Assembly: GCF_020735385.1 (NCBI RefSeq)
Contig: NZ_CP085953.1
Location: forward strand, 682,001-746,000
Source: Granulicatella elegans
GTDB lineage: Bacteria; Bacillota; Bacilli; Lactobacillales; Aerococcaceae
Direction of reading: 5' to 3'
Length of the DNA: 64,000 bases
Under the pieces are notes generated by a model. It was not told where the DNA came from. It was given only the letters and a program-made list of their open reading frames with translations, and ran no database searches. Positions 2,932-61,792 of the stretch are shown in pieces. How positions within the stretch are numbered: position 1 is the first letter of the stretch; each line of letters starts with the position of its first letter. Made by a program: the position numbers and the translations under genes.

Positions 2932-3222
2932 TTTATAGTAGATTTAAAACTTTGCAACAGAATCAGAAAAACTTATTAAGTACACGATAGAATAAAATGA
3001 TCATCTTTCAAGCGATACCTAAACCATGACAGTATCGATGAAAAAAGTAATTTTAGTGATTATAAATAAAAAATGGTTTTACAAATTGAATTTCTCCACC
3101 AGATATCCTATCTTAAATGAATCTATTTCGCCATACGACAGCTCACAAAGACAATCTTAAGTCCACCATTTGAAACCAAACTCTTGCTAGTAATTCAAGT
3201 TCGTTATATCAATTTGGTTTCA
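2932..3222. other. Gene-free spacer between nitroreductase relic and insertion sequence
   Basis: About 290 bases with no convincing reading frame, hairpin or repeat beyond short AT-rich runs. It is probably decayed coding DNA cut off by the insertion sequence on its right. Confidence 0.5.
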
Positions 3223-4927
3223 GAGGCTGGGCAAAAAGTCTCAAAAATAGAAGAAAGCACGTCCCGATTTTGACTGAAATCAAAATTAGGACGTGCTTTT
3301 TAATAAATTCAGTAAAATCAAGGGGGATAAACCACCCTTGATTCATATTATTTAAGATATATTTCCTTAATCTCTGCAAATTCATCCCTAAAAAGAGCAG
3401 ACCAATGTCATTATGAACTGCATTTTTACCTCTAACATGAGTTCTGCGCATGCCAAAATTGCGCTTCATTTGACCGAAAACTGGCTCAACTTCAATTTTT
3501 CGTTGAGCATATATACTACTTCCACGGTCACTATGTAACGCTTCTTTAATCGTTTCTTTATAAGATTCCCAAACTTGGTTTACACGGATTTGACGTTGTT
3601 GTCCAGTAGGAGTTTTCGCTAATTCATCCAATGCTTCTGTTTCTTGAATTGAATCTGTCTCATACACTTTAAATCTACGAGTAAATCCATTCTTATCGTT
3701 TCTTGTTGAATAATATTTAAAACTAAATTTTACACCTAAATGATCAATATAATAATCTTCCTCTTCATTGTAATACCAATTTTGTCTATTAGATGGATCA
3801 TTTTTAAATTTCTTCGTTTGTTCTTTTTCGTACATTGTGTAAGGAATCAAAGGTGTCTTTTCATACTCTTCAAGAATCAATTGATAGTTTTCTTCACTAC
3901 CGTATCCAGCATCCGCAATAATAATAGAAAATTTGTCTAATAGTTTAAATGAATTTAAAAATGGTTTAAGAGTACGCATATCTGTAGGATTAGGAAATAC
4001 ATCAAAACCTAAAACATATTGATGATTCGTTGCGATTTGAAGATTATAGCCAGGTTTTAATTCTCGATTTTTCATGGCATCTTCTTTCATACACATAAAA
4101 GTAGCATCGTTATCTGTTTTAGAATAACTATTCCGGTTATCAAATGTTTCCTTAGCTATCGTATATTTTTCTTTACGAGGCAGAAAATCTTTTTCAAGTT
4201 GACGTTTAAAAGAATTTAACAAGCGTTTTTTCTGTTTGTTTTTAGAACCACCAACAATATGTTTAGGTTCTTCTTCAATGAGTTCTTCTAACTGTTCTAG
4301 AGAGTTATTAGTAGCTTCAATCATGGCATGAACACCATATTCAGTAATTTTTTCTTCTTCTGATAAAGCAATATTCACTTGATTTTGAATTAATTGATCA
4401 TATAATGTACTAATTTTTTCATTTAAAGCTTCATCATATCTTTCAATAGCTTTACGCCATACAAATGAATAACGATTGGCATCTGCTTGAACTTTTGTAC
4501 CATCAATAAATAAACTATCTGAATCAATAATATGATAGTGTTGGAGTAATAAAGTAAAGTATACGAAAATGTTTTTAATGATAGAGGAAAACTGTTCATT
4601 ACTTCTAAAATTATTAATAACATGGTAACAGACATAAGTTTGTTGAGAAAGCCACTGCATCGGAATATTTTCTTCATTTAATTGAACAATTTTTCTACCA
4701 CTATACGTAGAACGAGTATAAGCGAAGAGAATCATTTTTAATAACATACGAGGATGATGAGCAGGTCTACCCATTTTTGATGTTGTATTAGGAAAGATAA
4801 TAGAATCTGGAATAGAATCTACAAACTGATTAATAAATTGAGCAATGTGGTTTTTAGGGACGGTTAATGTAAAATTTAGTTCTAAAGTATCTGTTGGTGT
4901 GGTATAATTTTTGTACATAGGAGTCAC
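3209..4927 (-). CDS. IS1182-family transposase
   Basis: A 572-residue DDE transposase, full length for the family. The N-terminal domain contains GRPAHHPRMLLKM. Catalytic-core landmarks include FIDGTKVQA (first Asp), IIADAGYGSEENY (second Asp) and EPVFGQMKRNFG (Glu). The frame shows no internal damage. The last four residues and the stop codon lie outside the element: the gene reads through the left inverted repeat into flanking DNA and stops at 3209. The exact C-terminus therefore depends on the insertion site, or the original stop has been lost. Confidence 0.93.
   Translation of the reverse strand: MTPMYKNYTTPTDTLELNFTLTVPKNHIAQFINQFVDSIPDSIIFPNTTSKMGRPAHHPRMLLKMILFAYTRSTYSGRKIVQLNEENIPMQWLSQQTYVCYHVINNFRSNEQFSSIIKNIFVYFTLLLQHYHIIDSDSLFIDGTKVQADANRYSFVWRKAIERYDEALNEKISTLYDQLIQNQVNIALSEEEKITEYGVHAMIEATNNSLEQLEELIEEEPKHIVGGSKNKQKKRLLNSFKRQLEKDFLPRKEKYTIAKETFDNRNSYSKTDNDATFMCMKEDAMKNRELKPGYNLQIATNHQYVLGFDVFPNPTDMRTLKPFLNSFKLLDKFSIIIADAGYGSEENYQLILEEYEKTPLIPYTMYEKEQTKKFKNDPSNRQNWYYNEEEDYYIDHLGVKFSFKYYSTRNDKNGFTRRFKVYETDSIQETEALDELAKTPTGQQRQIRVNQVWESYKETIKEALHSDRGSSIYAQRKIEVEPVFGQMKRNFGMRRTHVRGKNAVHNDIGLLFLGMNLQRLRKYILNNMNQGWFIPLDFTEFIKKHVLILISVKIGTCFLLFLRLFAQPLKPN
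3223..3260 (+). repeat. Left terminal inverted repeat of the IS1182-family element
   Basis: 38 bases, exactly the reverse complement of 5033-5070. The first 21 bases recur alone at 24134-24154. Confidence 0.95.
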
Positions 4928-5032
4928 CCTTTCTTATTTTATTTCATTCAAACTTATTATAACAGAGGTAGACTCCTATGTTTAATTTATAAGACTAAAA
5001 AGCACTATAAAATCCTGTTTCAGAATTTTATA

Positions 5033-5070
5033 GTGCTTTCTTCTATTTTTGAGACTTTTTGCCCAGCCTC
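5033..5070 (-). repeat. Right terminal inverted repeat of the IS1182-family element
   Basis: 38 bases, exactly the reverse complement of 3223-3260. It marks the junction with the PTS operon upstream region. Confidence 0.95.
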
Positions 5071-5081
5071 ATCCGATACGT

Positions 5082-35545: not shown

Positions 35546-35740
35546 ATGAAGCGCCTATTGAGTGTAGGATTTTGGATAGGTTTGATTTATCTTTTGATTT
35601 TTTTGAAGGTAAATGCGGTTCAATCGTTTGTAAATACTTCGATGGTTGGAGTTTATTTACATGTGGTGATGATTTGCTTGTTGATTATCGGATTTTTCGC
35701 CTATCTATTAAGAATCATACATTTCTTATTTGTGTCGTAG
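35546..35740 (+). CDS. Small membrane protein of unknown function
   Basis: A 64-residue protein that is almost wholly two hydrophobic helices (VGFWIGLIYLLIFLKV and VYLHVVMICLLIIGFFAYLL). It starts 22 bases after the YeiH gene with GAAGGAG as ribosome site and is probably cotranscribed. I do not recognise the family. It ends exactly where the structured element begins. Confidence 0.6.
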   Translation: MKRLLSVGFWIGLIYLLIFLKVNAVQSFVNTSMVGVYLHVVMICLLIIGFFAYLLRIIHFLFVS

Positions 35741-35909
35741 AATAGAAAAAACAAAGATTTGTTTTGAATGGCAACGGACGCCAGCAGCTTCGCAAAAGCG
35801 AATCTCATGGCTAAAATTTGAGCCTAGGGTCTCAAATTTTCCGGCAACTAAAACCGCTGTTGCGGTTTTGGTTGCTTCTGCTATTAAAACAAATCTTTGT
35901 TTTTCTATT
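35741..35909. other. Highly structured multi-hairpin element between convergent genes
   Basis: Arms 35741-35765 and 35886-35909 pair over 24 bp with one bulged A. Inside are three hairpins: TTCGC/GCGAA (35789-35802), AAAATTTGAG/CTCAAATTTT (35813-35840, loop CCTAGGGT) and a 14-bp arm pair GCAACTAAAACCGC with a TGTT loop (35844-35875). AGCAG/CTGCT closes an inner junction. The whole ~170 nt folds as a cloverleaf on either strand. The fni stop codon (35905-35907) lies in the right arm. It may be a bidirectional terminator, a MITE-like repeat or a structured RNA. Confidence 0.7.
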
Positions 35910-36981
35910 TCTTTTTACTTCTATTTGCGAAGGTTGTCCAGTCTATGTGGCGGGCGTTGCACCAGTGAGCGGTGGTTTTTGGGAGAATGATGTCTGTTTG
36001 GCGTAATGCTTCTGTTTTTGAAACGCCTAATAGGGTGTAAATATTTCTTAATTGATTCTTCCAGTCATTGACCGTTTGAATGGCTGTTGGTAGGGAATCT
36101 TGTGGGCGAATTAAATGTAAAAATTCTCCAGACATTCCTACAGCACTTGCTCCTAGAGCAAGACATTTTATGATATCTAATGGTGAATGAATGCCCCCAG
36201 AAGCAATGAGTTCACAAGATAAATCATAACCTTCTACTAAGGACTGAACTGTTGTTTGTCCCCAGTCTTCTAATTCATCAAATAAATCATCTTCTCTTCG
36301 AGCACTTTCAATGGCTGCAAAATTTGTGCCTCCACGTCCACTAATATCAATCGTTTGAACTCCGATATTGATCAGTTCTTGCATTGCTTCTCTACTAAAT
36401 CCAAATCCCACTTCTTTAACAATAACAGGAACATCTACATTAGAGACGATTTCCTCAATGTTTTTTAACCAATGATGGAAAGAGCGATCTCCTTCAGGCA
36501 TCACTAATTCTTGTAAAGTATTCACATGGATTTGAATGCCATTAGCTTCAATGAGGTCAATCGCTTTTTTAGCAGATTCAACGGTATAGTGTGCACCTAA
36601 ATTCGCCAATACAATTCCGTTAGGATTTTCTTTTCGGATAATGGTAAAGCTTTCTGCAGTAGAAGGGTCTTTCATGGTAATACTCATCGATCCAGTGGCC
36701 ATCGCAATTCCTGTTTCATGTGCCAATTGTGCTAGCCGTTGATTAATCAGAGTTGTTCGAGGACTTCCACCAGTAATCGCATTAATGAAAAATGGAGTTT
36801 CTAAAGTGAATCCTGCCATTTTTGTTTGAAGAGAAATTTCATCTACAGCCATTTCAGATAGAGGATGGTGGACAAAACGAGTTTGTCGTAATTCTAAATG
36901 CGACTGTGATTGATATTGTTGAGTCGCATGACCTACATGTTCATCTTTTCTTTTCATTTGTTGTGTATAGGCTTGTATCAT
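35905..36981 (-). CDS. fni: Type 2 isopentenyl-diphosphate delta-isomerase
   Basis: A 358-residue FMN- and NADPH-dependent isomerase converting isopentenyl diphosphate to dimethylallyl diphosphate. Motifs: TPFFINAITGGSP near the start, ANLGAHYT, the conserved VKEVGFGFS, and ISGRGGTNFAAIE for FMN phosphate binding. It is the last gene of the mevalonate operon and overlaps mvaK2 by four bases. Its stop codon lies within the right arm of the structured element. Confidence 0.95.
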   Translation of the reverse strand: MIQAYTQQMKRKDEHVGHATQQYQSQSHLELRQTRFVHHPLSEMAVDEISLQTKMAGFTLETPFFINAITGGSPRTTLINQRLAQLAHETGIAMATGSMSITMKDPSTAESFTIIRKENPNGIVLANLGAHYTVESAKKAIDLIEANGIQIHVNTLQELVMPEGDRSFHHWLKNIEEIVSNVDVPVIVKEVGFGFSREAMQELINIGVQTIDISGRGGTNFAAIESARREDDLFDELEDWGQTTVQSLVEGYDLSCELIASGGIHSPLDIIKCLALGASAVGMSGEFLHLIRPQDSLPTAIQTVNDWKNQLRNIYTLLGVSKTEALRQTDIILPKTTAHWCNARHIDWTTFANRSKKK

Positions 36982-58812: not shown

Positions 58813-61792
58813 ATGAATTTTGGACAAAACCTTTGTGCGACTCGTTCCTTAGTGAAAAGCTAAGGCACTAATAAAAGAACGAAAAAGTTTGATTATTAGG
58901 AGAACTGATAATCTGACAGGTGGAATGATGAAGTAACGCTCTGAAACGCCTGCCCTGAGCCTCCGACAAGCATTGAATGAGGAAACTCAGAATGTTTGAA
59001 GCTCGGTAAAGACGGCTGAAAGATACCGTAATAGTTGATGAACATATATCTTCTATCGAAAACTATCCAGAGGTGGGTAGCGTATCCAACAGGTCGGGGG
59101 TCTATAAAATATCTATGGTTAGAATGTTCCACAAGGGACTGACGAAACAGCGAATGTACGGGTCTAAATTTGTACTTTGTAGAAATGCAAAGGTACGAGA
59201 AATCGTAGCTGGTGTGGCAAAGTAAGAATATAGGTTATGAAATGCCATATACCGTTACAGGCGGTATCAAGCCAGCAGGCTTATAGCTAGTGACCTAAGG
59301 ATATATATGTATAGATAAGATTATCGGAACGAGGAAAGGTATTGGGTTCTCATCAAGAGAATAAGCTGACGAAGAACAATAAGCAGTTGAACCAATGCTG
59401 AAAAGCAGAGGGCGAACCTAAGAAATTCTTGTAATGGGAATGGAGGAATACCCTCAAGTCGTGTATATATTAGAAAAGTATTATGTTGCTTTAATAAGGA
59501 TTACGAGTAAGATAAAAAAGCTCACTCAATTTCAAGCAAAGGAGTGAAGCCTTATGCCTAAAAATAAAAATGAAACATTGTGTGTAGAAGATTTAAGACA
59601 CGCTGAATATTACGAAATGCAAAACACCTTTGATGATTTATATGCCAAAAGTAAGAATGGAGATATTTTCACTCATCTTATGGATATTATCCTATCGAGA
59701 GAAAATATATTACTGGCATATCGAAATATCAAAGCAAATGCAGGCAGTAAGACAGCAGGAACAGACGGTACAATAATTAAAGATATTGGCAAATTGCCAG
59801 CAGAAACAGTTGTCAAAAAGGTAAGATATATTGTCGCAGGCACTCCGCACGGGTATCGACCTAAGCCAGTAAGGCGAAAAGAAATACCAAAACCAAATGG
59901 GAAAACCAGACCTCTAGGCATTCCTTGTATGTGGGACAGGCTTATACAACAATGTATCAAACAAGTATTAGAACCAATCTGCGAAGCTAAATTTAGTGAA
60001 AACAGCTACGGTTTCAGACCTAATAGGTCGGTTGAAAATGCAATAAAAGCAACCTATAACCGCCTACAAATCAGCCAGCTACATTATGTGATTGAATTTG
60101 ATATTAAGGGTTTCTTTGACAACGTGAACCATTCCAAACTGATAAAACAGATATGGGCTATGGGAATACGGGACAAGCACTTGATATTCATTTTAAAAAG
60201 GATATTAAAAGCTCCAATTAAAATGCCTGACGGCACAATAACATATCCAGAGAAAGGAACTCCACAGGGGGGAATTATATCCCCACTACTAGCCAACATT
60301 GTTCTTAATGAGTTAGACCATTGGGTAGAAAGTCAATGGCATGAAAATCCTGTTACAAAAAACTATGTGGTTCATATCAATAAAAGCGGTAGCCCATGTA
60401 AAAGCAACGCTTACAAAGAAATGAAGAAAACAAAGTTAAAGGAAATGTATATGGTTCGTTATGCAGATGATTTTAGAGTTTTCTGTCGCTACAAAGAAAG
60501 TGCTGAAAAAACCAAAATAGCAATTACTCAATGGATCGAGCAACGACTAAAATTGGAAGTATCACAAGAAAAAACAAGAATTGTAAATGTTAGAAAAAGA
60601 TACTCCGACTTTCTTGGTTTCAAGATTAAAATGATACCGAGAAGAAAGAAGTTAGTTGTTAAATCACATATAAGTGATAAACAATTCAAGACCCAAAAAG
60701 ACAAGCTGGTATCACAGGCAAAGAAAATTGCTTCTCCCTCAAAGGGAAAAACAGAATTAGAGGAAATAAGACTTTATAATTCAATGGTATTAGGTATGCA
60801 AAATTATTATCAGATTGCAACAAATGTAAATCTGGATTGTATGAAACTTAATAGAGCTGTAATGGCTATCTTCACTAACAGATTAGGTGCAAGCAAAAAG
60901 GGCAGATTGAGAAAAACAGGCAGACAACTTACAACAAAAGAAGCAACAAGATATGGTAAATCTAAAATGCTTCGATATGTTGCTGGCGAGGGCGAACCTA
61001 TATTCCCTGTTGGATATATCCAACACAGAAAACCAATGGCAAAAGTGTATTCAGCAAACTGCTATACTCCAGAGGGAAGAAAATTTATCCATACCAATCT
61101 AAGTGTTGATAAATTACTGATGTATCAGTTGATGAAATTATCTTTGGAAAATCGCACAATAGAATACGCAGACAATCGAATTTCGCTATTTTCTGCCCAA
61201 CATGGAAAATGTGCTATAACTCTGGAAGAATTTCAACAAGCTAATGAAATACACTGTCATCATATTGTACCAACTAGGGCTGGTGGTAATGACGATTATA
61301 AAAATCTTATTTTGGTAAAAGAGGCGGTACATCGTCTAATACACGCAAAAACAGAAGAAACAATACAAAAATATATAGCTCTATTGAAACTAAATAAAGT
61401 CCAGCTCATAAGACTAAATAAATATAGAGTATTAGCTGGCAATCAAGAATTAAACTTGATATAGGTCTACTACATAAATACTTTTCAATATAAACACGAT
61501 GGAACGCGGAGTGCGGTGAAAGTCGCACGCTCCGTGTGAATGGGGGGAAAAGTTTGAGATATTTATAATATCAGGAACTTACCTATCCATATATAACTGG
61601 TTTCTATCAAACGCTCAATCACTGGTACTTTTAGCAATCGTTGTGATTGGCTTGTATCTTGGCTTCAAGCGTGAGTTCAGTAAACTCATTGGCTTTCTCA
61701 TTATTGCGATTATTGCGGTAGGCTTAGTCTTCAACGCTGCTGGAGTAAAAGACATTTTACTAGAGCTATTCAATCGCATTATTGGTGCTTAA
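58813..61792 (+). CDS. Tn916 Orf19-like small membrane protein, interrupted by a group II intron
   Basis: Exon 1 is 58813-58834 (MNFGQNL plus one base) and exon 2 is 61593-61792. Joined, they give exactly 222 bases: a 73-residue Orf19 protein reading YNWFLSNAQSLVLLAIVV across the joint and ending LFNRIIGA. It has one or two membrane helices and belongs to the transfer operon. Without splicing the reading frame runs into the intron and ends early, so transfer functions may depend on splicing if Orf19 matters. Confidence 0.85.
58835..61592 (+). mobile_element. Group II intron in orf19 of the Tn916-like module
   Basis: A 2,758-bp intron from GTGCGACTCG to CTATCCATAT. It has the required GTGCG 5' end and an AT (AY) 3' end. 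Domains I-III fill the ~720 bases before the reverse transcriptase gene. Domain V is recognisable around 61510-61535 (GAGTGCGGTGAAAGTCGCACGCTC), and the branch-point domain VI follows. Both splice joints restore orf19 exactly. It appears intact and mobile. Confidence 0.88.
59554..61464 (+). CDS. ltrA: Group II intron-encoded reverse transcriptase/maturase (LtrA-like) with HNH endonuclease
   Basis: A 636-residue multifunctional protein. The reverse transcriptase region has GIPCMWDRLIQQCIKQ, NSYGFRPNRSVENAI, PQGGIISPLLAN and the active-site YADD in MVRYADDFRVF. A maturase X domain follows, then a C-terminal HNH endonuclease (CHHIVPTRAGGNDDYKNL). This set enables splicing and target-primed retrohoming. 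AAAGGAGTG precedes the ATG within intron domain IV. Intact. Confidence 0.94.
   Translation: MPKNKNETLCVEDLRHAEYYEMQNTFDDLYAKSKNGDIFTHLMDIILSRENILLAYRNIKANAGSKTAGTDGTIIKDIGKLPAETVVKKVRYIVAGTPHGYRPKPVRRKEIPKPNGKTRPLGIPCMWDRLIQQCIKQVLEPICEAKFSENSYGFRPNRSVENAIKATYNRLQISQLHYVIEFDIKGFFDNVNHSKLIKQIWAMGIRDKHLIFILKRILKAPIKMPDGTITYPEKGTPQGGIISPLLANIVLNELDHWVESQWHENPVTKNYVVHINKSGSPCKSNAYKEMKKTKLKEMYMVRYADDFRVFCRYKESAEKTKIAITQWIEQRLKLEVSQEKTRIVNVRKRYSDFLGFKIKMIPRRKKLVVKSHISDKQFKTQKDKLVSQAKKIASPSKGKTELEEIRLYNSMVLGMQNYYQIATNVNLDCMKLNRAVMAIFTNRLGASKKGRLRKTGRQLTTKEATRYGKSKMLRYVAGEGEPIFPVGYIQHRKPMAKVYSANCYTPEGRKFIHTNLSVDKLLMYQLMKLSLENRTIEYADNRISLFSAQHGKCAITLEEFQQANEIHCHHIVPTRAGGNDDYKNLILVKEAVHRLIHAKTEETIQKYIALLKLNKVQLIRLNKYRVLAGNQELNLI

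Follow-up and report, generated by a model that had tools for sequence, protein, structure and literature searches.

A multicopy cloverleaf element at gene ends in Granulicatella, probably a mobile unit that targets terminators

The window, a stretch of 64,000 nucleotides of a Granulicatella genome, contains a cloverleaf-like element at 35741-35909 that spans the whole gap between two convergent genes, a 64-aa ORF and fni. The locus raises the question of what such an element is, how it came to lie there and what it does to the genes on either side. An earlier note on this DNA offered a MITE, a REP-like repeat or a new structured RNA, and considered that no known family fits. This interpretation is partly supported. 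The MITE guess fits best of the three, since the element is interspersed and multicopy, is mobile in Streptococcus, and shares terminal inverted repeats (TIRs) there with an insertion sequence (IS).

Fold and setting of the element

The outer stem enclosing three hairpins, as the earlier note described it, is real. The minimum free energy of 35741-35909 is -79.2 kcal/mol on the + strand, compared with a shuffle mean of -34.9 (z -11.75), and -71.6 kcal/mol on the - strand (z -10.76). None of the 200 shuffles is as stable as the real fold on either strand. The outer stem (P1) is confirmed, but not its length of 24 bp: it comprises about 31 pairs, interrupted by small bulges, between 35741-35773 and 35879-35909. 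The arms of hairpin 3 in the window copy include one G-U pair, and the fold bears out the pairing through it. The features of the locus are as follows.

35546..35740, + strand: 64-aa ORF, the upstream sense gene; its stop codon (35738-35740) abuts the element
35741..35909, + strand (the core strand, sense with respect to the upstream ORF): complete cloverleaf element; fold, blastn self match of 100%, 149.4 bits with covariance model R1
35741..35773, + strand: 5' arm of the outer stem P1; fold; begins directly 3' of the stop codon of ORF 35546-35740
35775..35778, + strand: 5' side of the inner helix P2 (GGA/TCC), with its partner at 35840-35843; fold; GGAC...CC conserved
35780..35811, + strand: hairpin 1, GCCAGCAGC..TCTCATGGC, with conserved internal loops; fold and copy alignment
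35814..35839, + strand: hairpin 2, AAAATTTGAGCCTAGGGTCTCAAATTTT, which bears the signature of the family (GAGCC..GGTCTC and a single bulged base); alignment and covariation
35844..35875, + strand: hairpin 3, in which pairing is kept and sequence varies among copies
35879..35909, + strand: T-rich 3' arm of P1; fold; overlaps the fni stop codon
35905..36981, - strand: fni (type 2 isopentenyl-diphosphate isomerase), convergent; ORF call, named from the earlier note and the mevalonate-pathway neighbours

The overlap with the fni stop codon was correctly seen before, the element ending at 35909 and the fni ORF covering 35905-36981. What had been missed is that the 5' end of the element directly follows the last base of the 64-aa ORF's stop codon. 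A simple scan of the gap found no second terminator-like hairpin. Two congeneric species without the element at this locus (G001 and G004; loci L326 and L328) carry a plain terminator hairpin at the corresponding position. The same 64-aa ORF is followed directly after its stop codon by AAGAGCTTAGGC..GCCTAAGCTCTTTTT in G001 (L326) and by CCAGCTTAG..CTAAGCTGGTTTT in G004 (L328).

Copies and covariation

Further copies, which the earlier note had thought possible, are abundant. The window element matches 43 places in its own genome (G000) by blastn, independently of any model, and 57 places in the sister species, with no blastn matches in 39 other genomes. The covariance model R1 was built from 33 copies, the window copy among them, and its E-values are rough (about 4e-30 for the window copy); copies were analysed as separate sequence stretches (loci). 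R1 gives 100 matches in G000, which represent about 78 distinct places or roughly 80 copies, and 138 matches (about 136 places) in the G. elegans sister genome, both counts including some reverse-strand echoes. The model is positive in 2 of 7 congeneric species, in 3 of 76 genomes of the family (one weakly), and in 64 of 395 genomes of the order Lactobacillales. The positive genomes belong to just two of 80 genera, Granulicatella and Streptococcus. The streptococci, recovered by a search with the hairpin-2 pattern, are mainly oral species, and their loci contain 89 R1 matches.

R1 depends on hairpin 1, and a sister type that lacks this hairpin escapes it; the Granulicatella family is therefore wider than the R1 counts. 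This sister element is found on the minus strand at the guaB 3' end (L310, L315; G001, G004) and consists of a long P1, GGACTGAGCCTAAGGTCTCAGTTCC and hairpin 3, with a tandem pair in L315. Tandem arrays of the element itself exist, as does a deletion derivative that retains P1 and hairpin 1 alone (L340). In another derivative (L060, about 364-395), hairpin 1 has become a perfect palindrome, GCCAGTAGTCTCGC..GCGAGGCTACTGGC, which is what template switching would produce in a copy free of constraint. The G. elegans copy that follows rbfA (L339, about 640-760) seems to be split within the loop of hairpin 1 by a different insertion sequence.

Compensatory changes are strong. In the alignment of 100 distinct copies from Granulicatella, 95.6% of cells are paired, and two-sided changes occur at 29 of 34 pairs (28 of 34 in a separate count). 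They amount to 610 cells, against about 40 one-sided cells and a shuffled mean of 156 two-sided ones. Pairing falls to 36-45% once the partners are slid by one column. Hairpin 3 (helix 4 of the copy alignment) has two-sided changes at 12 of 12 pairs. The streptococcal units are 89.2% paired, with 550 two-sided changes versus 150 after shuffling. At 15 orthologous sites in two Granulicatella species, 57 two-sided changes keep the pairing, as do 9 one-sided changes, while 21 one-sided changes break it. The share of G-U pairs is 0.4-2.5% in the inner hairpins and 6.9% in P1. Mismatches in P1 and the hairpin-3 arms are of the G-U type in 37 cases and of the A-C type in 16 (p 0.005), an excess that hints modestly at selection on core-strand RNA. 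Two readings of the concerted change of the arms remain: selection on both strands, as in a cruciform or a two-way terminator, or conversion between copies that replaces whole arms.

These patterns could also be explained by a functional structured RNA, an sRNA or 3'-UTR element that spread through its usefulness and for which mobility is incidental. The strong covariation in both genera agrees with this, as do the excess of G-U over A-C mismatches, the sense-orientation bias of the copies (given below), and the unpaired loops of hairpin 1, which are conserved in Granulicatella and identical in the streptococcal units. The Rfam family RF02616 is moreover annotated as a Streptococcus sRNA, but on the strand antisense to the neighbouring gene. 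The distribution is also patchy even among congeneric species, and individual sites are empty in some strains with no visible loss. G-U intermediates are very few, and two-sided changes outnumber them more than tenfold, as expected if both DNA strands count. Strong RNA covariation by itself is no proof of a cellular RNA role, because DNA-level palindromes mark a sequence similarly. A spread driven by a cellular RNA function is unlikely.

Placement and mobility

The copies favour convergent gaps and shun divergent ones. In G000, 28 copies lie in convergent, 42 in co-directional and 4 in divergent gaps (n=74), compared with 13, 53 and 22 in the background (n=88), the gene context being taken from simple ORF calls that may be wrong in individual cases. 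In 62 of 71 co-directional copies, the core strand coincides with the sense strand of the gene upstream (p about 7e-11), with sense-to-antisense ratios of 38:4 in G000 and 24:5 in G. elegans. Many copies start at most about 20 nt from the upstream stop codon. A 3' T-run (at least 6 T in 8) is present in 75 of 100 copies and in 13% of background 20-mers, and a mirrored 5' A-run in 44 of 100. In its sequence, the element has the predicted layout of an intrinsic terminator, a stable stem and then a T-run, placed where a gene ends. Species without the element have an ordinary hairpin at 20 of 30 orthologue ends, compared with 34 of 400 random stretches; a few of the 30 ends are occupied by the element. 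The window copy is probably a strong, roughly bidirectional terminator for both convergent operons. The third guess of the earlier note, a new structured RNA that protects both 3' ends, keeps some plausibility: the copy is the one terminator-like candidate between these operons, and two congeneric species have a terminator hairpin at this site.

Mobility is best documented in Streptococcus, where the complete unit has a length of about 225-275 nt. Strains of S. parasanguinis vary in whether a site holds the unit, the flanks of such sites being 90-97% identical. Of 60 streptococcal units, 16 lie between direct repeats of 13-31 nt, compared with none of 297 random pairings. Eleven of the 15 repeats examined are complete hairpins, each of which beats all 200 shuffles. 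The unit follows directly after the left repeat, and the right repeat is mostly followed by a T-rich stretch, so the original U-tract stays with the right copy.

The streptococcal units have terminal inverted repeats, starting with CAGATTGAAGACAAAGTC and ending with GTTTGTCTACACTCTG. Six streptococcal genomes were searched for the unit end, and two of them contain pairs about 1.55 kb apart. These pairs delimit an IS of 1,548-1,550 bp with the ends CAGATTGAAGACAAAGTC and GTTTGTCTACGTTCTG, and the TIRs are therefore common to the IS and the units; the IS1182-family ends in question are CAGATTGAAGACAAAG. Both ISs hold an IS1182-family transposase, interrupted by stops in each copy, and the pieces match NF033551 (IS1182) at 9e-66. 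One IS copy lies between two copies of a 25-nt hairpin, AGGAATGTAGTTTTACTACATTCTT, the right-hand one being followed by a T-run, and the other is flanked by two different hairpins. Judged from these sequences (common TIRs, strain polymorphism and hairpin duplications), the streptococcal units are MITEs of an IS1182-family IS. Other TIR pairs 1-2 kb apart (L125, L126, L211) are due to chance, the enclosed ORFs not being transposases.

MITE membership is shown just for the streptococcal relatives, because TIRs and target duplications were not detected at the Granulicatella copies. Inspection of the ends revealed no recognisable TIR at the window copy or at other Granulicatella copies, and direct repeats in G000 show no excess (1 of 78 versus 3 of 390 controls). 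The Granulicatella comparisons gave no precise empty/occupied junction: two sites (1258956 and 1844800) have a plain terminator in the sister species, but the sequence past the terminator diverges. One orthologous site carries the whole element, including P1, in opposite orientations (G000:1691334 and G006:779768, the latter in G. elegans). The same is seen between S. parasanguinis strains (L193:7097 and L158:2479). Such orientation switches, together with the deletion derivatives and tandem arrays, fit a mobile palindromic element.

Two other mobile elements occur in the window. A complete IS1182-family insertion sequence lies at 3224-5073, with inverted ends GAGGCTGGGCAAAAAGTCTCAAAAATAG and a transposase of 572 aa (3209-4927, minus strand; NF033551, 3.4e-104). 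Its TIRs are unlike the ends of the cloverleaf units. A 636-aa ORF at 59554-61464 has a reverse transcriptase domain (RVT_1) and two similar copies in the genome, and is possibly a multicopy group II intron.

Several other routes were considered and rejected. Mobilisation by a reverse transcriptase of the group II intron type is not indicated, as the number of reverse transcriptases does not track the element and the match in G. elegans is weak. IS1202 makes long duplications. As a mobiliser it found no supporting paper and is superseded by the IS1182 match. Phage or plasmid vehicles yielded nothing similar in either sequence collection. Insertion into the loop of a host terminator, whose stem P1 would then represent, does not suit Granulicatella, where P1 keeps the family sequence and is inverted together with the rest of the element at one orthologous site.

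Proposed origin and known systems

The window copy is best read, with a probability of roughly 0.7, as a non-autonomous mobile cloverleaf that targets terminators, that replaced the terminator at this locus and that is probably a bidirectional terminator itself. The DNA of the element would fold as a single strand, a cruciform or RNA, with P1 around one variable and two conserved hairpins. The likely mobiliser is an IS1182-type transposase that acts on hairpins in trans, because of the TIRs common with the IS and the insertion at terminator hairpins in Streptococcus. In that genus, the unit enters an intrinsic terminator hairpin and often leaves a full hairpin copy on each side. In Granulicatella, the copies occupy the terminator position directly after the stop codon in sense orientation, as they would if the target hairpin had been replaced and not duplicated. 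The A-rich and T-rich arms of P1 would then end transcription of both convergent operons. From the data at hand, we infer the trans-mobilisation, the replacement in Granulicatella and the terminator activity.

A more far-reaching version is put forward tentatively. The passenger may have taken over termination at dozens of genes, and its fold may now be a host-selected bidirectional terminator or 3'-UTR RNA. If true, the arms of the fold co-evolve on both strands and native terminators have been replaced across a bacterial lineage. A terminator-targeting cloverleaf suggests a route by which mobile elements could spread in a compact genome without doing much damage, by occupying gene ends and supplying or regenerating a terminator.

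For the boxA/boxC modules of BOX elements, the core pattern GGCGAMGCTGACGTGG has no exact match in the 357 loci. A BOX-type streptococcal repeat, of the kind found in S. pneumoniae and S. suis and moved by an unspecified system, is another candidate: BOX-type repeats including RepSU1 are described in S. suis, and they resemble the cloverleaf units in being small, folded at their TIRs, modular, intergenic and enriched between convergent genes (PMC3049150). Their termini are unlike the outer ends of the cloverleaf units, which are IS1182 ends. This origin is improbable, though the units may overlap with the S. suis boxE/F group of Croucher et al. The pneumococcal SPRITE is similar in its long stem, T-rich tail and enrichment at convergent 3' ends (PMC3049150), but is a plain duplex of 18 bp that lacks the three hairpins within.

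Interspersed, intergenic copies with imperfect hairpins would likewise be expected of a REP/BIME-like element and its mover, a REP-associated Y1 (HUH) transposase, but the Y1 transposase (PF01797) has no matches in the element-rich G000 and occurs in relatives that have no R1 copies. The REP-like guess of the earlier note is accordingly not supported, and such an origin is very improbable. An ordinary lone inverted repeat or terminator, which the terminator-like site between convergent genes might suggest, is next to negligible, given an element that is multicopy, has a common core and covaries in its stems. The outcome that the earlier note named as refuting, a single copy with no compensatory changes, is contradicted by the same results.

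The view that the element matches no known family needs correction in part. RF02616 (SSRC8_2) matches the window copy end to end, although at 43.8 bits, below its curated threshold of 72 bits. Four streptococcal units (L190, L129, L133, L188) reach the threshold, at the same positions as R1. The hairpin-2 loop, GAGACCCUAGGCUC, is identical in RF02616 and the window copy. Rfam describes the family as Streptococcus sRNA 8, whereas here it corresponds to a repeat that, in Streptococcus, has TIRs and duplicates hairpins. By sequence comparison, the "sRNA" family appears to be the same mobile element. The terminator-targeting reading would thereby tie an unexplained repeat and an Rfam family to a concrete mobilising system, the hairpin-recognising IS1182 transposases.

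The closest parallel is the IS1182 family itself. IS1272 and TnSha1 enter hairpins, several of which are confirmed terminators; the target is not duplicated, and the hairpin is partly or wholly lost (PMC4923244, PMC5678879). The streptococcal units share their TIRs with an IS1182-family IS and target hairpins and terminators as IS1272 does, but they have a cloverleaf fold and no transposase. Unlike IS1272, which deletes or replaces the hairpin, they duplicate it entirely. Duplication of the whole hairpin was drawn merely as a possible pathway in the IS1272 paper (PMC4923244), and the streptococcal units would provide natural cases of it. By analogy, the streptococcal units look like products of the duplicating route, and the Granulicatella copies look like products of the replacing route.
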